From the NCBI GenBank assembly GCA_012035135.1, contig JAAUPI010000009.1, forward strand, positions 1 through 46,849: a stretch of DNA of 46,849 nt, read 5' to 3'. Numbering within the stretch: the stretch's first letter is position 1; the number at the start of each line of letters is the position of its first letter. Both the position numbers and the translations under genes were made by a program. Below, in pieces: positions 1,104 to 34,853 of this stretch. Source of the stretch: Microcoleus sp. CSU_2_2. Its GTDB lineage: Bacteria; Cyanobacteriota; Cyanobacteriia; Cyanobacteriales; Microcoleaceae. A model generated the notes under the pieces. That model was not told the origin of the DNA and searched no databases. It saw only the letters and a program-made list of their open reading frames with translations.

Positions 1104-1823
1104 TCACGCAGAAACTAAACTTAAATCGTATCCATAAGCCTTTTGAATATTCTTGGCAGTCAGCACTTCCCCGCTGGAACCGATGGCAATTAACTGCTTA
1201 TTCAGCAACAATAAATTATCATATTTTTTTAAAGTTTCCCCTAAATTGTGACTGATTACTAACAAAGTCTTATTTTCCGATTTCAATTCGGCAAAAATAT
1301 CAAAAATAATCTCTTCTGTCGCTTTGTCGATCGCATTAAAAGGCTCGTCAAAAAAGAATAAATCGGCTTGTTGGGCGATCGCCCTTGCTAAGAAAATCCG
1401 TTGTTGCTGTCCGCCGGAAAGTTCGCCAATTTGCCGATCGCGCAAATCCCACATTCCCACCCGTTGCAAAGCGGCTTTTACCAATTCTTGTGACTGACGA
1501 GAGGGCGATCGAAACCAACCAGTCTGGACAGTTCGCGCCATCATCACCGCATTCCACACCGTAATCGGATAATCCCAGTCAATTTGCGATCGCTGCGGCA
1601 CGTAAGCCACCCGCTGCAACTGTTCCTTCAACAACCGCCCCTGATATTTCACCCTCCCCCGACAAGCCGGAATCAATCCCAGCATAGCTTTCACCATCGT
1701 GCTTTTCCCAGCGCCGTTGGGCCCGAATACCCCCGTTAATTGACCGGGATCTATATGGAAATTGATGCTGTTGAGGGCCGAAATCCCTCGATAGTTGACA
1801 GCCAAGTCTTGCACTTCTAGCAT
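1104..1823 (-). CDS. znuC: Zinc ABC transporter ATP-binding protein
   Basis: This 239-residue ABC ATPase has Walker A GPNGAGKST near residue 35, the signature LSGGQQQR near 135, Walker B LFFFDEP near 155 and a switch histidine in LLVISHN. It powers metal import through the ZnuB permease encoded just downstream. The start at 1823 lies 66 nt from the palindrome at 1889-1901. A Zur-type regulator bound there could control both this operon and the divergent znuA 5' fragment. In an MntABC-type system the gene would be called mntA; zinc is favoured by context. Confidence 0.9.
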   Translation of the reverse strand: MLEVQDLAVNYRGISALNSINFHIDPGQLTGVFGPNGAGKSTMVKAMLGLIPACRGRVKYQGRLLKEQLQRVAYVPQRSQIDWDYPITVWNAVMMARTVQTGWFRSPSRQSQELVKAALQRVGMWDLRDRQIGELSGGQQQRIFLARAIAQQADLFFFDEPFNAIDKATEEIIFDIFAELKSENKTLLVISHNLGETLKKYDNLLLLNKQLIAIGSSGEVLTAKNIQKAYGYDLSLVSA

Positions 1824-1866
1824 AATTGGAGATTTTGAGAACCATTCTTGTTTGCAGCTACTAGAA

Positions 1867-2087
1867 TAGGATAACTCGAAAAACCAATAACGATTATCGT
1901 TCCAAAGGTAAAAATGTTAAAGAACTTGCCAGGAAAAACCCGCAGATTTGGCAGCGCTGCTGTTTTGGCACTTGGCATCGGATTGGCTGGATGCAGTGGA
2001 AGCCCCCAAGCCAGCAATCCGGTGTCAGAGAGTCCCGCAGCGACTCAAACCCAAGCCAGCCCGGCCGCTAACTTGCCAAAAGTAGTC
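1867..2087 (+). repeat. 221-bp duplication of the znuA promoter and 5' end, copy 1
   Basis: This segment matches 4668-4888 over its full length with only scattered substitutions. It covers the Zur-like palindrome, the ribosome binding site and the first 58 codons of znuA. The match stops abruptly at 2087. The next sequence carries a 15-bp string (ATCGCCCGCGGCTCC, 2093-2107) that recurs at 4583-4597, just in front of the second copy. The layout suggests that the GTPase/WD40 segment arrived inside an ancestral divergent znuCB/znuA locus. Confidence 0.9.
1889..1901. promoter_or_regulatory. Zur-like operator between znuC and the znuA fragment
   Basis: AACGATTATCGTT is a perfect 13-bp palindrome in the divergent promoter region. 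It resembles the AT-rich inverted repeats bound by Fur-family zinc regulators. The same palindrome precedes the intact znuA at 4690-4702. Assignment to Zur is inferred from gene content. Confidence 0.55.
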
Positions 2088-2141
2088 AGTCGATCGCCCG
2101 CGGCTCCTACTAACTACTTGTCTCCCCCTTTTTTTTCTTGA
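1914..2141 (+). pseudogene. Truncated znuA 5' fragment
   Basis: The first 58 codons encode a lipoprotein signal peptide (LALGIGLAGCSG lipobox) and a Ser/Pro/Ala-rich linker. They are nearly identical to the start of the intact znuA at 4715. After codon 58 similarity ends and the frame runs through unrelated sequence to a stop at 2139-2141, giving 75 residues with no metal-binding domain. The promoter palindrome and ribosome binding site (AAAGG) are kept, so a small lipoprotein could still be made under zinc control. I read it as a leftover of a duplication. Confidence 0.8.
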
Positions 2142-2434
2142 ATTTGAGCTTACCACTTTTCTTTTATTTACACAAATTATTCAGACGCGCTATGTATCAA
2201 AAAAACATTCTCCCCGCGCTGTCTGCATCTCGATTTGCGAGGCAATTAAAGACCAATTTAGAGCATCCAAGTCTTGAGAATTAATTGCTAGAAAACCTAG
2301 AGATTTATCTATGATAGTCCACAAGTATTATTTGATCTGTTTTTGGTAAAACCCGCCCTTACAGTCTCCAGCGAACACTTTATTAACATTATTTAATATT
2401 GTTGCTGTTGCCAGCCTGTGTGGTGTAAGATACC
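2142..2434. other. Intergenic region upstream of the COG0523 gene
   Basis: About 290 bp lie between the znuA fragment and the Zur-like box. I see no convincing gene or strong hairpin here. It probably carries promoter sequence for the GTPase gene. Confidence 0.5.
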
Positions 2435-2447
2435 GATAATGGTTATC
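2435..2447. promoter_or_regulatory. Zur-like operator upstream of the COG0523 GTPase
   Basis: GATAA-TGG-TTATC is a perfect inverted repeat 25 bp before the start codon at 2472. Its GATAA/TTATC half-sites match the general form of zinc-regulator boxes in cyanobacteria. This would place the metallochaperone gene in the same zinc-starvation regulon as znuA and znuCB. Confidence 0.6.
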
Positions 2448-2471
2448 ATTGTACAATAATCGAGGTCAAGT

Positions 2472-3443
2472 ATGGTGACTGCTGGGGCGATCGAATCAGT
2501 TCCTGTTACCGTTCTCACAGGATATCTGGGTGCAGGCAAAACTACGCTACTGAACCACATCTTAACACAGGAACATGGCAAAAAAGTTGCAGTAATCGTC
2601 AATGAATTCGGCGAAGTAGGCATCGACAACCAACTGATAATTGATGTCGATGAAGAAATTTTTGAAATGAACAATGGCTGCATTTGCTGTACAGTCCGAG
2701 GCGATTTAATTCGGATTATCGGTAACTTGATGAAGCGACGAGAAAAATTCGACCACATAGTCATCGAAACCACAGGTATAGCCGACCCTGCACCCGTAAT
2801 TCAGACATTTTTTGTAGACGAAGATATGCAGAACAAATTGCGGCTAGATGCAGTTGTCACCGTAGTCGATGCCAAGCACATCTATCAGCACTGGGACGCC
2901 GAAGAAATCCAAGAACAAATTGCTTTTGCCGACGTGATTTTGCTCAACAAAAGTGACTTAGTAACTGAGGAAGAATTAGCAGAATTAGAGAAGCGAACCC
3001 GCGCCATGAATGCAATGGCAAAAATCCACCGCACCCACAACTCTGAATTAGAAATTAATGCTTTGTTGGGCATCAAAGCATTTGATTTAAACCGGGCATT
3101 AGAAATCGAACCGGACTTTTTGAGCGTACACGTTCACGAACATGATGCAACAGTAAAATCAATAGCAATAGTAGAACCCGGTGCTATTGACGGCAACAAA
3201 TTTAGCGATTGGATCGGCGAATTGCTGCGAACTCAAGGCCCGGATATCTTTCGGACCAAAGGCATCTTAAATATTGCAGGAGAAGACAAGCGATTTGTTT
3301 TTCAAGGAGTGCATATGCTGTTTGACGGCCGACCGGATAGAGCCTGGAAAGCTACCGAAACTCCGAAAAATGAGCTTGTATTCATCGGGCGCAACTTAAA
3401 TGAAAATCAATTGCGAGAGGATTTCCGTGGGTGTCTAGTTTAA
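2472..3443 (+). CDS. COG0523 (CobW-like) GTPase, putative zinc metallochaperone
   Basis: This 323-residue G3E-family P-loop GTPase has Walker A GYLGAGKT near residue 17. It also has the invariant metal-binding CICC motif in NGCICCTVRGDL near residue 68, ETTGIADP, and the guanine-specificity motif NKSD near residue 157. A C-terminal CobW_C domain contains the metal-ligand-like HVHEHD stretch. Family members use GTP to hand metal to target proteins, and those in Zur regulons are linked to zinc. The start is supported by GAGG upstream and the Zur-like box at 2435. The stop overlaps the start of the next gene by 13 bp, so translation is probably coupled. Confidence 0.9.
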   Translation: MVTAGAIESVPVTVLTGYLGAGKTTLLNHILTQEHGKKVAVIVNEFGEVGIDNQLIIDVDEEIFEMNNGCICCTVRGDLIRIIGNLMKRREKFDHIVIETTGIADPAPVIQTFFVDEDMQNKLRLDAVVTVVDAKHIYQHWDAEEIQEQIAFADVILLNKSDLVTEEELAELEKRTRAMNAMAKIHRTHNSELEINALLGIKAFDLNRALEIEPDFLSVHVHEHDATVKSIAIVEPGAIDGNKFSDWIGELLRTQGPDIFRTKGILNIAGEDKRFVFQGVHMLFDGRPDRAWKATETPKNELVFIGRNLNENQLREDFRGCLV

Positions 3444-4540
3444 AAGAAACGGGCAAAAAAAAGAGCGGTAGCAGCAAACAAACCCTGCAATTTCACGCTA
3501 AAGAAATGCTGTCTGACTACGTAACTGCTGTTACTTGGTCGCCAGACGGCAAAACTTTGGCGGTTAGTTCCGCTGCGGGCGAAGTGATGCTAGCGACAGT
3601 AGGGGCAATTAATGAATTGTCCTTACAACCGCTGCAAACGGCCACAGGAAAATCGGCAGATTGCTTGTCTTTTTCCTCCGACAGTCAACTCCTAGCTGCG
3701 GGAGGACAAGACGGAAAAGTGCGAATTTGGCGCACCGATTCGGGCGAATTAATTGCTGAGTTGGATAACAAGCGGGTGTGGGTTGATAAGTTAGCTTGGA
3801 GTCCCAACTGCAACCAGTTAGCTTTCAGTATCAGCCGTGGCGTTCAAGTCTGGAATGCGGACGATAATATTGTTGAGGTAACGCTGAATTTTGAAGCATC
3901 TTCGGTGCTAGACTTGGCTTGGCATCCAGTTGCTAAATATCTGGCAGTTAGTGGCTATCAAGGCGTTAAAGTCTGGAACGGCGAAGACTGGGACGAAGAC
4001 CCGCACGTCTTGTCAGTACCGTCTGCAACAGGTGCAATTTCTTGGTCGCTACAAGGGCAATATTTAGCTTGTGGCAATATCGACAACACCCTAATTGTTA
4101 ATGAATGGGGCAGTTCTCAACCATGGATAATGCAGGGGTTTCCGGGGAAAGTTCGAGAGTTAGCTTGGTCCGATCGAACTAATTCTTTGGGTGCACCTTT
4201 GTTAGCTGCTTCGAGTTCTCAAGGGATTTCTGTTTGGGAAAGAGACGCTGATGAAAGTGTCGGTTGGGAAGGTTGGGCGTTAGAGGTGCATGAAAATGTG
4301 GTAAATGCGATCGCCTTTCAACCTACCACATTTTTATTAGCTTCGGCAGCCGCAGACGATCGAGTTTGTTTGTGGAAGCAAGCAAAAGAATTGCTGCAAA
4401 TTCTGGAGGGTGCCGATGGAGGTTTTTCTTGTCTTGCATGGCATCCTCAAGGTCAATTTCTCGCAGCAGGCGGATGCGGTGGTGAATTGATTGTTTGGGC
4501 AAAATCAATCCGGGGAAAAGGATTCAGTAGGGTCCCCTGA
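3431..4540 (+). CDS. WD40-repeat protein coupled to the COG0523 GTPase
   Basis: The 369-residue protein starts at a GTG inside the end of the GTPase gene, with AGAGG as ribosome binding site. It contains about seven WD40 repeats, visible as recurring (V/L)W endings such as VRIWRTD, VQVWNAD, VKVWNG, ISVWERD, VCLWKQA and LIVWAK. It would fold as a seven-bladed beta-propeller, usually a protein-binding platform. There is no signal peptide, so it is probably cytoplasmic. Overlap with the GTPase suggests it acts with the metallochaperone, for example as a docking partner. Its exact role is unknown. Confidence 0.85.
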   Translation: MSSLKETGKKKSGSSKQTLQFHAKEMLSDYVTAVTWSPDGKTLAVSSAAGEVMLATVGAINELSLQPLQTATGKSADCLSFSSDSQLLAAGGQDGKVRIWRTDSGELIAELDNKRVWVDKLAWSPNCNQLAFSISRGVQVWNADDNIVEVTLNFEASSVLDLAWHPVAKYLAVSGYQGVKVWNGEDWDEDPHVLSVPSATGAISWSLQGQYLACGNIDNTLIVNEWGSSQPWIMQGFPGKVRELAWSDRTNSLGAPLLAASSSQGISVWERDADESVGWEGWALEVHENVVNAIAFQPTTFLLASAAADDRVCLWKQAKELLQILEGADGGFSCLAWHPQGQFLAAGGCGGELIVWAKSIRGKGFSRVP

Positions 4541-4667
4541 CGCAGGGAGTCGGCAGTTGAAACCGATGCAGGCGGTGTTCTCATCGCCCGCGGCTCCCGC
4601 AAGTCATCCGATTTTCACCCCCAGCTACACTTCCCTTTCGTCCCTCTCTAAGAGACTAAGAAATAAG

Positions 4668-4888
4668 TAGGATAACTCGAAAAACCAATAACGATTATCG
4701 TTCCAAAGGTAAAAATGTTAAAGAACTTGTCAGAAAAAACCCGCAGATTCGGAAGTGTGGCTGTTTTCGCACTTGGCATCGGACTGGCTGGATGCAGTGG
4801 AAGCCCCCAAGCCAGCAATCCGGTGTCAGAGAGTCCCACGGCGACTCAAACCCAAGCCAGCCCGGCCGCCAACTTGCTAAAAGTAGTG
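4668..4888 (+). repeat. 221-bp znuA 5' duplication, copy 2 (intact gene)
   Basis: This is the partner of 1867-2087. It lies in the same orientation about 2.8 kb away and continues into the complete znuA gene. Confidence 0.9.
4690..4702. promoter_or_regulatory. Zur-like operator upstream of znuA
   Basis: The palindrome AACGATTATCGTT lies 12 bp before the znuA start codon, within the duplicated segment. It is close enough to the ribosome binding site for a bound repressor to block transcription or an elongating polymerase. Confidence 0.55.
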
Positions 4889-5755
4889 GCCACTACTGGT
4901 GTTATTTGCGACATCACGAAAGAAATTGCCGAAAGTTCGATAGACACCACCTGTTTAATTAAGCCCGGAGACGACCCCCACGCCTATCAAACCAAGCCGG
5001 AAGACCGCAAAGCCATTGAAACGAGCAATCTGATTTTGTATGGCGGTTACGACCACGAACCCAGTATCATTAAACTGATCAAATCTAGTACCAATTCCGC
5101 GCCCAAAATCGCCGTCCACGAACTCGCCGTTCCCAAACCGCTAATCGGCGAACACGAGCACGGCCCCGAAGAAAAAGCTGAAACCAAACCGCATACAGAA
5201 AGCGAAAAAGTTCCCGACCCTCACGTTTGGCATAATCCTCAAAATGGCATCCGTATGGTAGAAACTATTCGCGACGAATTGAAAAAAGTTTCTCCTAGCA
5301 ATGCTGAACTTTATACCAAAAATGCAGCAAAATTAACAGAAGATTTGCAAAAATTAGATACTTGGATTAAAGCTCAAATTGCGACGATTCCGGCAGAAAA
5401 ACGCAAGTTAGTAACTACTCACGATGCTCTGAGTTACTATGCAAATGCTTACGGTTTGGAGATTGCTGGAGCTTTGCAGGGTGTGACTACAGAGGAACAG
5501 CCAACAGCAGCCAGAATTGCCGAATTATCTTCGGAAATTAAGTCCGCAGGAGTCCCGACAATTTTTGCCGAAACGACGACTAATCCGAAGTTGATGGAGA
5601 CTGTGGCTAGGGAGGCAAATGTCAAAATTTCGGACAAGGAACTCTACAGCGACGAGTTGGGCAGTCCTGGTAGCGGTGCTGATACTTATGAGGGGATGCT
5701 GAAAACTAATACTTGCGCGATTACTTCTGGGCTCGGCGGCAATTGTAGTCCCTAA
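4715..5755 (+). CDS. znuA: Zinc-binding lipoprotein of the ZnuABC importer
   Basis: This 346-residue cluster A-I (SBP_bac_9) solute-binding protein begins with a lipoprotein signal peptide and lipobox LAGC near residue 26. Likely ligands are His in DDPHAYQ, His in DPHVWHN, His in TTHDALSYY and Asp in YSDELG. A His at the third position is typical of zinc binders, whereas manganese binders usually have Glu there. A charged loop with several His residues (HEHGPEE to KPHTESEK, about residues 145-165) precedes the second ligand, as in other ZnuA proteins. AAAGG precedes the ATG. The gene is separated from znuCB by the GTPase/WD40 pair. Confidence 0.9.
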   Translation: MLKNLSEKTRRFGSVAVFALGIGLAGCSGSPQASNPVSESPTATQTQASPAANLLKVVATTGVICDITKEIAESSIDTTCLIKPGDDPHAYQTKPEDRKAIETSNLILYGGYDHEPSIIKLIKSSTNSAPKIAVHELAVPKPLIGEHEHGPEEKAETKPHTESEKVPDPHVWHNPQNGIRMVETIRDELKKVSPSNAELYTKNAAKLTEDLQKLDTWIKAQIATIPAEKRKLVTTHDALSYYANAYGLEIAGALQGVTTEEQPTAARIAELSSEIKSAGVPTIFAETTTNPKLMETVAREANVKISDKELYSDELGSPGSGADTYEGMLKTNTCAITSGLGGNCSP

Positions 5756-5790
5756 TCAATTTTGGATTTTGGATTTAGGATTGCTATAGT

Positions 5791-5850
5791 AAGGTGCGTC
5801 GATCGAAAGAATCTGCAATTTGTACCGAACATCTGACGGCGACGCACCTT
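5791..5850. repeat. GGTGCGTCG palindromic repeat
   Basis: Arms AAGGTGCGTCG (5791-5801) and CGACGCACCTT (5840-5850) form an 11-bp stem around a 38-nt loop just after znuA. A half copy (TATAGTAAGGTGCGT) follows at about 5877. It belongs to the same family as 15-122. It may serve as a 3' structure for znuA and for the convergent gene that follows. Confidence 0.7.
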
Positions 5851-5905
5851 AGAAACCTCACTTTCTTGAAAACCAGTATAGTAAGGTGCGTTGCCTCTGA
5901 GAAAA

Positions 5906-6166
5906 TTAAGGCAAATTTTCCTCATCCGTACTAGGAGGTTTTTGACCAATTCCCAAGTTTTTCTTAGAGGATTTTAAATCCTTCCACAGCACCTTAATAT
6001 CTTTATAGGCTTTTTCCGCGCTGATTTTCCCGCCCGTTTCCAGCGAGCAAATGTATGTTATTTTCTGAGCAAACTCCTGCAAGTTGGCATTAAACGCCAA
6101 ATTTTCCGGCGTGAAATCACCGTAGTAGCGATGGCGAGGATGTAAAAAATCTTCCCGCTCTTTCAT
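5906..6166 (-). CDS. Conserved cyanobacterial small protein (DUF7219-like)
   Basis: This 86-residue soluble protein contains HPRHRYYGDFTPENLAFNAN and a predicted helical second half (EFAQKITYICSLETGGKISAEKAYKDIK). This pattern matches a small protein family I recall from many cyanobacteria (DUF7219). No catalytic motif or signal peptide is visible and the function is unknown. AGGAGG lies upstream of the start (complement of CCTCCT near 6170), which supports translation. The gene is convergent with znuA. Confidence 0.75.
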   Translation of the reverse strand: MKEREDFLHPRHRYYGDFTPENLAFNANLQEFAQKITYICSLETGGKISAEKAYKDIKVLWKDLKSSKKNLGIGQKPPSTDEENLP

Positions 6167-6368
6167 GGCCCCTCCTAATTCAAGTTTTTGTTTGCGTCTC
6201 TGCTGTCAATATGTGCTGTTTGTACATCGTTTCGCGACGCTAACCTGCTTCTATTCTATGGCACAAGTCGCGATCGCGTTTTTTGCGCTGTACTAGACTC
6301 GATCGATTTCAATTTTAACCTGACATTAGCCATAATTTAACTTTTCTTTAACCTTAACGCACAAAAAT
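6167..6368. other. Intergenic region
   Basis: About 200 bp between the DUF7219-like gene and the terminator hairpin. No gene is seen. It contains HIP1-type sequence (CGCGATCGCG at 6272) and presumably the promoter of the minus-strand small gene. Confidence 0.4.
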
Positions 6369-6393
6369 GGGAGATGCGGACACCGCATCTCCC
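6369..6393 (-). terminator. Rho-independent terminator, probably for smtA
   Basis: An 11-bp perfect stem (GGGAGATGCGG and complement) with a 3-nt loop is followed on the minus strand by ATTTTTGTG. It lies about 240 nt downstream of smtA. Confidence 0.6.
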
Positions 6394-6629
6394 TTGAGAT
6401 CTAGTTTACTGCTTTTTCTTAACTTTTTGGGAAGCCCAGCACTTATCCTAAATCCGGGTTGCTCACCCCCTTTTTGAGCACGGTTGCTCATTTCTCTCCC
6501 TCCCTGTTCTGGGGATTCGGGCTTTTCTCGCCATCTCCCCCTCTCCCCATCAACCGAGAATGAAACAGTCCTGCCCTATCCCCCTCTCCCCATACAGCAT
6601 TAAAAGCGTTTTTTAATCGGGAGTTGAGA

Positions 6630-6797
6630 TTATTTGTGGCATCCGCAGCCGGTGTGACCGCAGCCAGTGCCGTTAGGATGACCCTCAGCGCAGGCGCCCG
6701 AACAGTAGTAGTGACCGCCTTTTTCAATGGCTTCACTGAGGCTGACAATGCACAGGCAAGAAGAACAGGCACATTTCATTTGGGTTACGGTAGTCAT
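6630..6797 (-). CDS. smtA: Bacterial metallothionein SmtA
   Basis: The 55-residue protein has nine cysteines and several histidines in the classic cyanobacterial metallothionein order: KCACSSCLC, then YYCSGACAEGH, then GCGHTGCGCHK at the C terminus. It closely follows the SmtA pattern, which holds four zinc ions in a Cys/His cluster and buffers excess zinc and cadmium in the cytosol. A longer frame is open upstream, but the start at 6797 is chosen because AGGAG lies about 10 nt before it and the N terminus (MTTVTQMKCAC) matches known SmtA proteins. It is divergent from smtB with the operator between them. Confidence 0.95.
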   Translation of the reverse strand: MTTVTQMKCACSSCLCIVSLSEAIEKGGHYYCSGACAEGHPNGTGCGHTGCGCHK

Positions 6798-6833
6798 TTT
6801 TGTGCTCTCCTGGTGGGTGTTTATATTTATATC

Positions 6834-6847
6834 TGAACACATATTCA
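6834..6847. promoter_or_regulatory. SmtB-type operator in the smtA/smtB divergent promoter
   Basis: TGAACACATATTCA has the TGAA...TTCA half-site form of ArsR/SmtB operators. It is followed by a second, overlapping inverted repeat (ACACATA/TATGTGT, 6838-6855). It lies 37 bp upstream of smtA and about 60 bp upstream of smtB. Zinc release of SmtB from this site is expected to turn on smtA. Confidence 0.65.
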
Positions 6848-6905
6848 TGTATGTGTCAAGGTGATGTAAAAAATTTGTTACAAAATCAGTATCGATCGCC
6901 CTAAA

Positions 6906-7343
6906 ATGAAAATGAGAACCAAACCAAATCTGCACAGAATGTCACTCAACCCTGCTGTTAACGAAGTCGCAAATCAGCCCCAAACCGATACACCAATATG
7001 CGATATACCCCACCAAATTAACAGCAATCTAACTAGCAACATCCAAACACAAGTTCTCAACACTCGGAAAGCCCAACGAATGGCAGAGTTTTTCAGCCTT
7101 TTGGGAGATGCAAACCGTCTGCGACTGCTATCAGTTTTGGCAAAGCGAGAACTGTGCGTGTGCGACTTAGCAGCGGCTTTAAGCATGAGTGAATCAGCAG
7201 TATCGCATCAGTTACGGGCATTGCGGGCGATGCGATTGGTCAGTTATCGCAAGCAAGGCCGACAAGTTTTTTACAGTTTGCTCGATAGACACGTTTTGGA
7301 ACTTTATAATGCAGTGGCGGAACATTTAGACGAAGAAGAATAA
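6906..7343 (+). CDS. smtB: ArsR/SmtB-family zinc-responsive repressor
   Basis: This 145-residue winged-helix protein has the core AEFFSLLGDANRLRLLSVLA, the recognition helix SESAVSHQLRALR and the wing YRKQGRQVFYSL. The alpha-5 zinc site is complete: Asp and His in DRHVLELY, then His and Glu in AEHLDEE. An alpha-3N-type site is also possible because of ELCVCD together with a Cys in the N-terminal tail (TPICD). It should repress smtA, and probably itself, until zinc binds. The first ATG at 6906 lacks a clear ribosome binding site; starts at 6912 or 6939 are possible. Confidence 0.92.
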   Translation: MKMRTKPNLHRMSLNPAVNEVANQPQTDTPICDIPHQINSNLTSNIQTQVLNTRKAQRMAEFFSLLGDANRLRLLSVLAKRELCVCDLAAALSMSESAVSHQLRALRAMRLVSYRKQGRQVFYSLLDRHVLELYNAVAEHLDEEE

Positions 7344-7361
7344 GCTTTCAAACACGAATCC

Positions 7362-7418
7362 GGGAAATCTCGGAGGAGAAGCCTACACTTACCCGGCAGG
7401 GAAGTGTAGGTAGTTCAC
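7362..7418 (+). mobile_element. Solo right-end remnant of an IS200/IS605-type element (possible omega-RNA end)
   Basis: GGGAAATCTCGG leads into a hairpin with 9-bp arms (CCTACACTT at 7382-7390, AAGTGTAGG at 7402-7410) followed by TAGTTCAC. The order GGGAA, CTCGG, AGCCT, TTACC, AGG, AGT, AC resembles the sequence after the tnpB stop at 46586-46647. No transposase lies next to it. I infer a decayed or non-autonomous element end just after smtB. Confidence 0.45.
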
Positions 7419-7489
7419 AGAAAACACGCTAAACACGAGTTGGGTATTAAGTTGACACGCTTTGAACAAGACTTAATTTCCTATAAATT

Positions 7490-8350
7490 TCACTTCAAAG
7501 TTAATACCTTTGAATGCAAACTAATATCAGGTATACACCGCCCAACCGCTGCCGCCACAGGCCACAAACTCGCAACTAAATCAACCATATCTGCCAAAGA
7601 AAGAGCTTGCCGCGCGTCTGAAACCGACTTTTCCGGTTGCGGGTGGCATTCAATAATTAACCCGTCAGCGCCGCAAGCAACTGCTGCTTTAGCTAAAGGT
7701 GCAACTAACTCTCGCTTGCCGACAGCATGAGAAGGATCTACAATTACTGGCAAATGAGTTAACTGTTTCAGCGCTACTACTGCACCTAAATCCAATACAT
7801 TTCTGGTATAATTGTCGAAACTGCGAATACCTCTTTCGCATAGAACTACATCAGGATTTCCGTGAGCAATAATGTATTCAGCAGCCATGACAAACTCTTC
7901 AATTGTGGCTGACAAACCGCGTTTGAGCAGGACAGGTTTTCCGGCTTGACCGATCGCCTTTAATAGCTCGAAGTTTTGCATATTGCGACTACCTATTTGT
8001 AGCATATCAGCATAGGTGACAACTGGCTCGATTTGGGCGATCGACATTACCTCCGTCACCACCGGTAAACCGTAACGTCGGCTAACATCCGCCAAAATTT
8101 CCAGCCCTGCAATTCCCAAACCCTGGAAAGAATAGGGAGAAGTACGGGGTTTATAAACTCCCCCCCGCAAAGCTTGAACTGAGGCGACAGCAAGTTTGCT
8201 GGCGACTGTTTCCATTTGTTCTAAGCTTTCCACGGTACAGGGGCCGCCGACTATTAGCAATTCGGTGCCCCCGACAGAGACTGTATCTGATAATTTGACA
8301 ATTGTTTGATGTTCTGGATGAGATTTAGTTGTGAGTTTGGCATCTAACAT
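7490..8350 (-). CDS. aroF: DAHP synthase, type I beta (3-deoxy-7-phosphoheptulonate synthase)
   Basis: This 286-residue TIM-barrel enzyme condenses phosphoenolpyruvate and erythrose 4-phosphate, the first step of the shikimate pathway. Family marks are GGPCTVES (metal-ligand Cys), RGGVYKPRTSPYSFQG, LLKRG, CERGIRSFDNYTRN, DPSHAVG and ECHPQPEKS. The N-terminal stretch of about 35 residues before the barrel is too short for the ferredoxin-like or ACT-like regulatory domain seen in some relatives. Allosteric control may therefore be weak. AGGAGA lies 8 nt before the ATG. The long leader upstream carries two aromatic-rich peptide ORFs and two terminators (8387-8673), which strongly suggests transcriptional attenuation by aromatic amino acid supply. 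Confidence 0.95.
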   Translation of the reverse strand: MLDAKLTTKSHPEHQTIVKLSDTVSVGGTELLIVGGPCTVESLEQMETVASKLAVASVQALRGGVYKPRTSPYSFQGLGIAGLEILADVSRRYGLPVVTEVMSIAQIEPVVTYADMLQIGSRNMQNFELLKAIGQAGKPVLLKRGLSATIEEFVMAAEYIIAHGNPDVVLCERGIRSFDNYTRNVLDLGAVVALKQLTHLPVIVDPSHAVGKRELVAPLAKAAVACGADGLIIECHPQPEKSVSDARQALSLADMVDLVASLWPVAAAVGRCIPDISLHSKVLTLK

Positions 8351-8386
8351 GATGGATTCTCCTGGAATATAAAGTGGGTGGATGAC

Positions 8387-8418
8387 AAAAAAACCCGGAA
8401 CCTTAAAGAGTTCCGGGT
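8387..8418 (-). terminator. Attenuator terminator 2 of the aroF leader
   Basis: On the minus strand a 9-bp stem (ACCCGGAAC/GTTCCGGGT, 8410-8418 with 8393-8401) with an 8-nt loop is followed at once by a run of T. It lies between leader peptide 2 and the aroF start, so termination here would prevent aroF expression. Its 5' arm is also complementary to the last codons of leader peptide 2 (8446-8456). Confidence 0.85.
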
Positions 8419-8443
8419 GAGTGCGAAAAGACAGCGCGACAAT

Positions 8444-8506
8444 TTACCCAGAACTCCTGTTGGGCCAAAAATAAAAGCCGTAATACCAGTTACTGAATAA
8501 TGTCAT
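8444..8506 (-). CDS. Aromatic leader peptide 2 of aroF (attenuation peptide)
   Basis: The 20-codon ORF encodes MTLFSNWYYGFYFWPNRSSG. Eight residues are aromatic, and seven of the eight positions 7-14 are Trp, Tyr or Phe. AGAGG lies about 11 nt upstream of the ATG. The stop is 26 nt before terminator 2. The last codons (8456-8446) can pair for 11 bp, including one U-G wobble, with the 5' arm of that terminator. Ribosomes stalled at the aromatic codons would leave this segment free and favour read-through; ribosomes reaching the stop would cover it and allow termination. Function is inferred from this architecture. Confidence 0.85.
   Translation of the reverse strand: MTLFSNWYYGFYFWPNRSSG
8446..8456 (-). 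promoter_or_regulatory. Antiterminator arm in leader 2
   Basis: The RNA segment GAGUUCUGGGU (8456 to 8446) pairs with ACCCGGAACUC (8418 to 8408). The pairing covers all nine bases of the 5' arm of terminator 2, so the two structures exclude each other. Confidence 0.75.
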
Positions 8507-8554
8507 CGCTGTTTTCGCCTCTACTCGATCTATGGGTGGTAAAACAAATGCCGT

Positions 8555-8587
8555 AAAAAACAAAACCGCAGGTATTAATCTGCGGTT
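8555..8587 (-). terminator. Attenuator terminator 1 of the aroF leader
   Basis: On the minus strand an 8-bp perfect stem (AACCGCAG/CTGCGGTT, 8580-8587 with 8564-8571) with an 8-nt loop is followed by TTGTTTTTTACGG. It sits between the two leader peptide ORFs, about 30 nt after the stop of leader 1. A transcript ending here would contain only leader peptide 1. Confidence 0.8.
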
Positions 8588-8632
8588 CGCCTGGGTGTCC
8601 ATAGTGAATTTACAATTCACCCTGGGCGAACC
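8584..8632 (-). promoter_or_regulatory. Antiterminator hairpin overlapping leader 1 and terminator 1
   Basis: The RNA arm GGUUCGCC (8632 to 8625) lies within codons 14-17 of leader peptide 1. It pairs for 8 bp with GGCGAACC (8591 to 8584). The second arm shares four bases (8584-8587) with the 5' arm of terminator 1, so forming one weakens the other. Smaller internal stems (GGGTG/CACCC and GTGAATT/AATTCAC) lie in the loop region. Confidence 0.7.
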
Positions 8633-8673
8633 TGACCGTACCAAAAATAAAAATAGCTGTTGGTTGCGAACAT
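8617..8673 (-). CDS. Aromatic leader peptide 1 of aroF (attenuation peptide)
   Basis: The 18-codon ORF encodes MFATNSYFYFWYGQVRPG, with an uninterrupted run of six aromatic residues at positions 7-12. It begins about 38 nt downstream of the predicted transcription start and ends 30 nt before terminator 1. It is in a different frame from the longer open frame that contains leader 2. The ribosome binding site is weak. The antiterminator arm lies in its last codons, 6 nt after the last aromatic codon, the spacing expected for a ribosome-stalling switch. Confidence 0.82.
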   Translation of the reverse strand: MFATNSYFYFWYGQVRPG

Positions 8674-8717
8674 AAGTAAAGCGCTGGAATTTTTGGATTA
8701 AACACAATACTTTGATA

Positions 8718-8746
8718 AACCTAGCACAGACAAACAGGAATGTCAA
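8718..8746 (-). promoter_or_regulatory. Sigma-70-type promoter of the aroF leader
   Basis: On the minus strand TTGACA (8741-8746) is separated by 17 bp from TAGGTT (8718-8723). This fits a group 1 sigma promoter. Transcription would start near 8711, just upstream of leader peptide 1. Confidence 0.7.
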
Positions 8747-8757
8747 GCAAAAAATTT

Positions 8758-9332
8758 GTAGGGCGGGTTAAGTTAATCATTTTCCGAGCCAATAAACGAT
8801 CTCGGTGTCAAATCCGCCTCTACAGAAATTAGATTTATTTAATTGGAATTAATAACTTTTTTAGGAATATTTTTCTAGACTTAAATCAAGGCAGATATAA
8901 AAGTTTAATCGCTTATTTGTAAATGTTTGTGAAGTCAGAAAGCTTAACCAAATAAATTTGTATAAATTGCTACATTTTTTTGGAATTGGCGATCGCACGA
9001 GTTGAGAAAAAACACAGTATATCGAATCAAAGAACAACAAAAAGTAGAGCGCAACTTTTGTTTACTGTACCAAATACACTCCCGTAAAGTCGATCGGCTT
9101 TACCGCAGTAATCGCCCGTTAACAGCCACTAGACAAGCTCCATCGGCATTTTAACCTGATTTGAACCCCACTACAAGCTACGCGCGATCGAGATCGAAGT
9201 CATCCTTCAGATAGAAGTAATTGCCGAATAAGTGGGTTAGATTTATGAACAATAGCAAGTCTAAGAATATTAACTTATCTCAAACTTTCACTTCCGAAAC
9301 AAAATCGTCTTGACAAATTTCAGAGGCTAATT
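8758..9332. other. Intergenic region between aroF leader and glycosyltransferase
   Basis: About 575 bp without a supportable gene. It opens with an imperfect inverted repeat (TGTAGGGCGGGTT at 8758 and ATCCGCCTCTACA near 8812) of the dispersed cyanobacterial type. The rest is AT-rich and probably carries the promoter of the gene at 9333. The function of its middle part is not evident. Confidence 0.5.
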
Positions 9333-10643
9333 ATGTCCCCCTTAGAAAACTCAGTCAACAATAATTATAGCAATAATAACGGTGCAGGATGGGAGATACG
9401 ATTTACCTCAATAGATACGGCGCGATCGTTGTCTCAACTAGCCCCCTTGCCCAAAGTGCGCGCCAACTTATCAAACGAATCTGCTTTAGATACACCGGAT
9501 CTCGTTTGTCTGTCACATTTGCGATGGAATTTCGTCTACCAGCGACCGCAACATCTCCTCAGCCGCTGCGCTAAAAACCGCCGCGTATTCTTTGTCGAAG
9601 AACCAGTTTTTAGTGCTGGTACTGATTGGCGGCTAGATGTCACCATCCACGAAAGCGGAGTGTGGGTAATCGTACCGCACCTGAGCGAAGAAATCAGCGA
9701 AGAAACAGCACAAAAAATTCAGCAAGAAATGCTGAAAGACTTGTTTAAAGCAGCAGGAATTCAGCAGTACATTCTGTGGTATTACACCCCAATGGCCGTG
9801 AGTTTTACCAACCACTTAAAACCCCTAGCCGTAGTCTACGACTGCATGGACGAACTGTCAGCATTCCAAGGTGCTCATCCGGCTTTAAAAGCTAATGAAA
9901 GCGAACTTTTGAAGCGCGCCAACGTAATGTTTACGGGCGGACACAGCCTGTACGAAGCCAAACAGCATCAGCACCCCAATATTCATGCTTTTCCCAGCAG
10001 CATTGAAAAAGAACACTTTGCTACAGCTAGGTACTTGGCAGAAGAACCGGCAGATCAAAAAGACATCCCTCATCCGCGTTTGGGATTTTTTGGTGTTATT
10101 GACGAACGCATGGATACCGAACTGCTGCGCGGGATTGCTGAAGCGAAACCCGACTGGCATTTAGTCATAATTGGCCCCGTTGTCAAGATCGATCGGGCAA
10201 CTCTTCCCACTCACCCAAACATTCATTATCTGGGCGGTAAATCTTATCAACAACTGCCGGAATATTTGGCAGGCTGGGATATAGCAATGCTGCCTTTTGC
10301 GATTAACGAATCGACTAAATTTATCAGTCCTACCAAAACACCAGAATACCTCGCAGCAGGCAAACCAGTAATTTCAACTCCGATCCGCGACGTGGTGCGT
10401 CCCTACGGAGAAAAAGGTTTAGTTCAGATTGCCAGCAATGCGTCAGAATTCGTGGCCTGCGCTGAAGAAATCTTGAAGGAAAGTGCAGATAGAACCAATT
10501 GGCTCAACGAAGTTGATGCATTTTTAGCAGACAATTCTTGGGACAAAACCTGGGACGAAATGCTGGGGTTAATAGAAAGTGCGATCGAGAGCAGAAGTAA
10601 GAAGTCAGCAGTTAACAGTCAACAGTCAGCAGTTAACAGTTAA
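9333..10643 (+). CDS. GT-B fold glycosyltransferase
   Basis: The 436-residue protein starts its conserved part at LVCLSHLRWNFVYQRPQHLLSR (about residue 58). Its C-terminal donor domain includes RLGFFGVIDERMD, WDIAMLPFA and STKFISPTKTPEYLAAGKPVISTP (about residue 340), typical of group 1 glycosyltransferases. No signal peptide is seen, so it is cytoplasmic or membrane-peripheral. The neighbouring UDP-galactopyranose mutase suggests it may use UDP-galactofuranose or act on the same glycan; this is inference. AGAGG precedes the ATG. The last 14 residues (KKSAVNSQQSAVNS) are encoded by a heptamer repeat array, so the natural C terminus has probably been replaced or extended by repeat sequence. 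Confidence 0.85.
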   Translation: MSPLENSVNNNYSNNNGAGWEIRFTSIDTARSLSQLAPLPKVRANLSNESALDTPDLVCLSHLRWNFVYQRPQHLLSRCAKNRRVFFVEEPVFSAGTDWRLDVTIHESGVWVIVPHLSEEISEETAQKIQQEMLKDLFKAAGIQQYILWYYTPMAVSFTNHLKPLAVVYDCMDELSAFQGAHPALKANESELLKRANVMFTGGHSLYEAKQHQHPNIHAFPSSIEKEHFATARYLAEEPADQKDIPHPRLGFFGVIDERMDTELLRGIAEAKPDWHLVIIGPVVKIDRATLPTHPNIHYLGGKSYQQLPEYLAGWDIAMLPFAINESTKFISPTKTPEYLAAGKPVISTPIRDVVRPYGEKGLVQIASNASEFVACAEEILKESADRTNWLNEVDAFLADNSWDKTWDEMLGLIESAIESRSKKSAVNSQQSAVNS

Positions 10644-34775: not shown

Positions 34776-34853
34776 TTGATGCGTAAGTTTTTTTGGGAGT
34801 ATTTTCGTTATTATAGCAGTATTTTAAATTAAAATCAATAGTTTATCGCAATT

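Follow-up and report, generated by a model that had tools for sequence, protein, structure and literature searches.

The DNA analysed here (the window) is a stretch of 46,849 nucleotides from the cyanobacterium Microcoleus sp. CSU_2_2 (contig JAAUPI010000009.1). Its minus strand carries, in this order, a promoter, a short open reading frame (ORF1), an intrinsic terminator, a second short open reading frame (ORF2), a second intrinsic terminator and aroF (7490–8350), which encodes a type I-beta DAHP synthase of the short form (TIGR01361, E = 1.3e-107; PF00793, E = 1.1e-77). The match of the aroF product to the 338-position profile PRK08673 begins only at position 70, and the second DAHP synthase copy of the genome has 353 residues, with 53% identity to aroF over residues 23–263; judging from these comparisons of predicted proteins, the aroF isozyme is without the N-terminal extension present in its paralog. 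The next gene 3' of aroF (6906–7343) lies in the opposite direction, so aroF appears to stand alone in this window. A zinc neighbourhood (4715–7343) is found beside aroF, with genes for a ZnuA-like protein (4715–5755), a prokaryotic metallothionein (6630–6791, minus strand) and an ArsR-family regulator (6906–7343).

The promoter consists of a −35 element TTGACA (8746–8741), a 17-nt spacer and an extended −10 element, TGC-TAGGTT (−10 at 8723–8718), from the position of which transcription is expected to start near 8711. A reading of the sequence alone (the sequence-only reading) had placed a good promoter ahead of ORF1. This promoter (8718–8746) is absent from the listing of a consensus scan, yet TTGAC and TGnTAnnnT are invariant across 28 aligned upstream regions, picked from 90 for their diversity, and the element is retained here on the strength of sequence and conservation. 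The two aromatic ORFs, the two terminators and the start of the DAHP synthase gene all lie at the positions first noted.

ORF1 (8617–8673, minus strand, as are all of the following elements) encodes MFATNSYFYFWYGQVRPG and ends with a TGA stop codon. Its end, GGTTCGCC...GGGTG, is complementary to the sequence CACCC.GGCGAACC, which precedes terminator 1; the antiterminator of module 1 is a covarying helix with a 5' arm within the end of ORF1 (GGTTCGCCCAGGGTG, 8618–8632) and a 3' arm at 8584–8597 (CACCCAGGCGAACC). The sequence GAACC (8588–8584) is at once the end of this 3' arm and the start of the 5' arm of terminator 1 (8555–8588), which was found by a terminator scan, is supported by conserved pairing and comprises a stem (8588–8563) and a T run to 8555. 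ORF2 (8444–8506) encodes MTLFSNWYYGFYFWPNRSSG and ends with a TAA stop codon. Its last codons and the first base of the stop codon form the antiterminator 5' arm of module 2 (AGTTCTGGGT, 8446–8455), complementary to ACCCGGAACT (8409–8418), which is both the antiterminator 3' arm and the 5' arm of terminator 2 (8387–8418; stem 8418–8393, T run to 8387); the scan detected this terminator too, and both pairings recur in relatives. A third helix of module 2, supported by covariation and duplex energies, joins an arm in the start region of ORF2 (GCGAAAACAGCG and ATGACA, 8501–8518) to the segment following the ORF2 stop codon (TGTCGCGCTGTCTTTTCGC, 8441–8423). In both modules the antiterminator 5' arm is located within the end of the ORF, where it is necessarily masked once a ribosome has reached the stop codon.

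ATG-initiated ORFs of 10–40 residues with at least six Phe, Tyr or Trp in nine residues number three in the window (ORF1, ORF2 and one at 34779–34832), against a mean of 0.33 and a maximum of 2 in 100 dinucleotide shuffles of the window, a count that is by far outweighed as evidence by conservation. The third of these ORFs (plus strand), which encodes the aromatic-rich peptide MRKFFWEYFRYYSSILN, is followed by an ORF of at least 200 residues in the same direction only from 42160, and is probably a chance occurrence.

These elements could operate as follows. Transcription would start at the predicted promoter and a ribosome would translate ORF1. If Phe-, Tyr- and Trp-tRNA were charged, the ribosome would reach the stop codon and mask the antiterminator 5' arm, terminator 1 would fold and the transcript would end near 8555. 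If the ribosome stalled in the aromatic run of ORF1, the free arm would pair with the first bases of terminator 1 and the polymerase would continue. ORF2 and terminator 2 would impose a second such decision ahead of aroF.

Conservation and distribution of the leader

Among the matches listed in genome contigs, 526 relatives were confirmed, and the leader was followed in the 80 best of these. ORF1 and ORF2 are present as a pair upstream in 77 of these 80 loci, and ORF1 starts at most 600 nt from the match in 76 of the 77 (655 nt in L077). The three misses are L034 and L035, for which only 102 and 47 nt of upstream sequence are available, and L012, which has a rearranged upstream region and has lost module 1 and the start of ORF2. 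With the addition of loci from whole genomes, 98 distinct upstream regions were available, 90 of which contain ORF2; the eight others are long-paralog controls (L002, L109, L110 and L111), the three loci just mentioned and L099, from a genome of the window's own genus (G011), in which the gene has no leaders. Typical peptides have the form M..NSYFYFWFRVVHRE and MTYFSSWFYGFYFWPR.SSG. By our own reading, an ATG start codon is lacking in ORF1 of L019 (1 of 77) and in ORF2 of 9 of the 77 loci. ORF1 stops right after the aromatic run in L089 and L105, with the antiterminator arms retained. The pattern used to extract module 1 did not pick up L014, although a terminator with changed pairs is present in its sequence. 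In L066 and L071, no T run could be identified behind terminator 2. The idea of aromatic leader peptides would have been refuted by flanking DNA conserved in relatives without the aromatic ORFs, and the outcome was the opposite: conservation extends to the ORFs as well as to the arms, the terminators and the promoter.

Covariance models of both modules were also run, with stricter filters at the cost of weak matches, against 386 genomes of the phylum, 37 of which have a full close relative of the short DAHP synthase (E at most 6.6e-128). With an E limit of 0.01, the module 1 model gave matches in 38 genomes, in one place each; these are 36 of the 37 genomes and, in addition, G084 and G420. Strong matches to the module 2 model (E at most 2.1e-5) were likewise obtained in 38 genomes, in this case 36 of the 37 together with G420 and G306. 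In the genomes with the full short gene, the strong matches adjoin, by their coordinates, the short gene and not the other DAHP synthase. The module 2 match in G306 (E = 1.7e-5) has no aromatic ORF and was rejected as a false hit. At E up to 0.1, the module 2 model matched 112 of the 386 genomes, 74 of them with weak matches only; the only one of these 74 that was read, G005 (E = 0.01), has no aromatic ORF. The covariance models took the place of a search for the ORF2 core by a six-codon DNA pattern, which had matched 93 of the 386 genomes, its hits not being read singly. One contig (C3 of G140) has 13 matches to the leader-core pattern, and the ten listed are all TTTGGCTTTTATTTCTGG, are scattered and look like repeated sequence.

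The two genomes with a module 1 match and no full short gene retain parts of one. In G084 (L243), what is left of the DAHP synthase gene is joined to module 1, and terminator 1 and module 2 are missing from the sequence read. In G420 (L242), an insert of about 5.8 kb interrupts the short gene (about 1270–7927 of the reverse complement) after about residue 77; it encodes a phage-type integrase (PF00589, E = 5e-13), and its junctions bear a 16-bp direct repeat. Both leader models still match at this locus. The insert resembles the elements that heterocyst formers excise during development. The leader element is dedicated to one isozyme, and decays with it in the cases seen.

It could be supposed that regulation rests on a single module, the other being left over as a passive relic or serving as an insulating terminator. 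Nature provides copies of this kind, with module 1 only in G164 (L241) and module 2 only in G056 (L107) and in G190 (L172), where a promoter of the same form lies right before module 2. Such an arrangement is nevertheless decidedly unlikely to be the general one, given that both modules are found in 35 of the 37 genomes with the full short gene, that both sets of arms are kept and that both codon runs are selected.

Codon-level selection in the two leader peptides

Codon changes were inferred on the aroF gene tree for 89 loci. Of the 41 changes inferred for the aromatic positions in ORF2, 37 leave an aromatic codon (25 are synonymous and 12 replace one aromatic residue with another), and the same is true of 52 of 82 changes in ORF1, 33 of which are swaps between aromatic residues, whereas a simple mutation weighting gives an expectation of about 21% for unselected aromatic codons. 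Elsewhere in ORF2, among the positions counted, 189 of 242 changes lead to a different residue. The anchor pattern has probably displaced some ORF1 rows by one residue, and changes in ORF1 would then be overcounted. The codon runs of ORF1 and ORF2 are, by these counts, both under selection, and the aromatic runs with synonymous substitutions anticipated for relatives in the sequence-only reading do exist. In distant families, the order of Phe, Tyr and Trp is permuted and the richness in aromatic residues is kept (for example YFYFYFFW, NFYFWFFYW and SFNSYYFWFYFW), so that what is kept is the class of codon and no single motif.

The peptides themselves might act, with no readout of tRNA charging: they could stall the ribosome as arrest peptides in response to free aromatic amino acids, or work in trans once released. 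ORF2 does keep more than its aromatic residues: among 79 distinct ORFs, the codon after the last Trp (core +5) specifies Pro in 72, mostly as CCC, and Arg comes next in 61, although this Pro is missing in several distant lineages. Sinorhizobium offers a reported precedent for action in trans, the leader peptide peTrpL, as described in the part of the source available (PMC7298713). An arrest motif should, however, be fixed, contrary to the frequent aromatic swaps and to the permuted order in distant lineages, and the C-terminus of ORF1 varies in a manner that preserves RNA pairing (Arg/His swaps maintain the antiterminator pair) and is missing in L089 and L105. Action of the peptides themselves is, on this evidence, very improbable.

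Competing helices and modelled dependence on ribosome position

Covariation was evaluated in an alignment of all 45 non-redundant module 1 regions (A2) and in one of the non-redundant module 2 regions (A1), which comprises 43 of the 44, L048 being omitted for its misplaced end; module 1 of L043 was excluded from extraction, from the ribosome-masking folds, from the codon-change count and from the retest of the start-region helix. In the module 1 antiterminator, 94.3% of cells are paired (87.6% in shuffles) and 30 cells have double changes (8.2 in shuffles), values as high as these being reached in 0 of 500 shuffles; the number of pairs with double changes (4) is not above that in shuffles (104 of 500 as high). 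The module 1 terminator is nearly invariant, with 100% of cells paired in the 45 sequences. The module 2 antiterminator has 94.4% of cells paired, and this pairing is nearly invariant, which leaves only weak covariation (double changes in 2 pairs and 2 cells, with 21 and 83 of 500 shuffles as high). The module 2 terminator is 95.3% paired, and 19 of its 20 double-change cells are in one pair.

The covarying helix between the start region of ORF2 and the segment between its stop codon and terminator 2 is a new feature, absent from the first reading. It is 71.4% paired with 57 double-change cells, exceeding all 500 shuffles on both counts, and is better than versions of itself slid along the alignment, while the number of pairs with double changes (9) is matched by shuffles (8.9; 336 of 500 as high). 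Duplex energies were −15.4 kcal/mol with cognate and −11.6 kcal/mol with foreign partners in 78 loci, and −13.1 versus −10.1 kcal/mol in a retest with 19 representatives, for which 0 of 20,000 permutations was as good; these permutations ignore relatedness. In L018 and L079, pairing of the start region with its own partner is no better than with foreign ones. The helix crosses the module 2 antiterminator, and the two are consequently mutually exclusive in a pseudoknot-free fold. A start-region helix in module 1 gave only a weak signal (55 of 20,000 permutations as good, 21 representatives), which relatedness could explain.

Dependence on the position of the ribosome has been modelled only, by folding the leader after removal of the bases from the ribosome backwards, the first free base being 16 nt after the first P-site base. 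The values obtained are equilibrium values, describing a poised switch and not its kinetics. With the ribosome at the stop codon, the mean predicted probability of the terminator is 0.98 in both modules, and it exceeds 0.8 in 87 of 87 loci for module 1 and 87 of 88 for module 2. With the A site at the core, the antiterminator has a probability of 0.46 in module 1 and 0.49 in module 2, and synonymous recoding lowers these values to 0.07 (real sequence higher in 74 of 83) and 0.02 (80 of 85). Mean antiterminator values lie between 0.38 and 0.61 for A sites from core −5 to +2 in module 1 and from −6 to +3 in module 2, one position represented by a single locus apart, and the antiterminator disappears from core +3 to +5, in the region of the last aromatic codons. 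Positions upstream of the run behave much alike (0.38–0.43 at core −5 and −6, where n > 1), so that the folds place the switch point just past the run and do not mark out the run itself as special. Averaged over the aromatic codons, a stalled ribosome makes the antiterminator more probable than the terminator in only 30 of 87 loci for module 1 and 40 of 88 for module 2.

In ORF1, the modelled stall is effective at core −1 to +2 (mostly Tyr, Phe, Tyr and Phe) and less so at +3 (mostly Trp; 0.26), and module 1 would therefore be set mainly by Phe and Tyr, its Trp codon coming late. The early Trp of ORF2, present at core −3 in 68 of 79 distinct ORFs, lies in the effective zone, and module 2 would follow Trp, Phe and Tyr. 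The folds suggest on these grounds that module 1 senses Phe/Tyr and module 2 Trp/Phe/Tyr, the response to amino acids being itself an inference. With no ribosome in the model, the antiterminator prevails in module 1 (0.66) and the terminator in module 2 (0.92), from which the untranslated defaults of the two modules seem, by inference, to differ. Hiding the ORF2 start region raised the module 2 antiterminator from a mean of 0.04 to 0.29 (0.11 with a control mask), the rise exceeding 0.2 in 27 of 86 loci.

Conserved and covarying helices are also what would be expected if the leader RNA were a riboswitch or a protein-binding site, with the ORFs merely carried along. This explanation is hardly tenable in view of the selection on aromatic codons, the presence of arms at the stop codons and the modelled switch point at the last aromatic codons. 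The leader families in Rfam include the Phe leader and the Trp leader. No Rfam match at gathering level was obtained in the whole window, and a search of the leader itself (8340–8760) with an E limit of 5 yielded no more than two weak hits (E = 0.13 and 3), far below gathering scores and neither of them to a leader family, T-box and other Rfam riboswitch models not being matched. Chance occurrence of aromatic ORFs near terminators, for which it can be said that aromatic codons are AT-rich and terminator-like sites abundant (the scan of 7000–9500 found 2 against 2.8 expected in shuffles, and alone proves nothing), is ruled out by conservation across many genera, covariation and codon selection, the shuffles being a weaker check.

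Probable attenuation in series and its relation to known systems

We consider it very likely that the short DAHP synthase gene is governed by two transcription attenuators, arranged in series and both ribosome-mediated; there are no RNA, translation or expression data, and translation of the ORFs and the two transcript ends are inferred. Two attenuators reading Phe, Tyr and Trp codons, as first proposed from the sequence, are supported by both the comparative and the folding evidence. If ORF2 were untranslated, its start-region helix would compete with the antiterminator, and module 2 would stop transcription by default, opening only on a ribosome stall. The two modules may thereby form a coincidence gate, in which module 1 would respond to Phe/Tyr and be open when untranslated, and module 2 would respond to Trp/Phe/Tyr, with its start clamped, and be closed when untranslated. 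This gate is a tentative proposal, quite possible on the modelled defaults but not to be relied upon. Were it true, the isozyme without the N-terminal extension would be made only when active translation coincides with a lack of charged aromatic tRNAs, and the leader would be a natural reporter of the coupling of RNA polymerase and ribosome in cyanobacteria, organisms that are not known to possess Rho. Attenuation needs a ribosome close behind the polymerase, so the leader would make such coupling testable by means of a reporter. Coupling in cyanobacteria is suggested as a possibility, without demonstration, in the available parts of two articles (PMC13378304, PMC10802570), and no demonstration of it was found in the literature, to the extent that the sources were available.

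The sequence-only reading knew of no comparable system in cyanobacteria, and no aromatic attenuator in these organisms was found in the open-access full-text literature, among the matches listed. A 2016 survey states, in the part available, that there are no reliable data on attenuation in cyanobacteria (PMC4833913). The main text of a survey of premature terminators (PMC2965389) contains none of the terms cyanobacter, Nostoc, aroF, aroG, DAHP and aromatic, and the sole occurrence of 'attenuator' in a review on scytonemin (PMC7997468) is in the title of an E. coli reference. If the present interpretation is true, a classical form of control not yet established for the phylum exists there in doubled form, on the isozyme without the N-terminal extension. 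It bears on the engineering of aromatic products in cyanobacteria.

Leader attenuators of E. coli form alternative hairpins, and module 2 is like them in that its third helix is predicted to favour the terminator when the ORF is untranslated. The trpL, pheL and pheST leaders of E. coli, as covered in the part of the source available (PMC11802643), share with the aroF leader a peptide with regulatory codons and a competition between antiterminator and terminator, but each has one attenuator for one amino acid, as opposed to two in series for three amino acids. The aroR-aroF system of Corynebacterium glutamicum (Neshat et al., 2014, via the available parts of PMC11802643 and PMC4046766) also has a leader peptide with aromatic codons, Phe-Tyr-Phe, ahead of a DAHP synthase gene, and ribosome stalling is said to raise its transcription under Phe limitation, Tyr supply having no effect. 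As far as those parts go, this system differs from the cyanobacterial one in its single leader, with Phe and Tyr only, and belongs to another phylum; the likeness drawn here is one of function. Attenuators with terminator/antiterminator pairs have also been predicted at aromatic genes in other bacteria, before tyrA operons, some of which include a type I-beta DAHP synthase; the word 'leader' is absent from the main text of that study, and no cyanobacterium figures in its attenuator table, within the part available (PMC1173090). Tandem attenuators with two short ORFs, one of them rich in codons for a single amino acid, are known from the mgtCBR leader of Salmonella (mgtM and mgtP), which senses two different signals, ATP and proline (PMC3641672, available part), whereas the cyanobacterial pair would read overlapping sets of aromatic codons. 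The aroF leader is very probably a case of known ribosome-mediated attenuation, and is new in its ORF2 start clamp, its conserved promoter and its link to a single isozyme.
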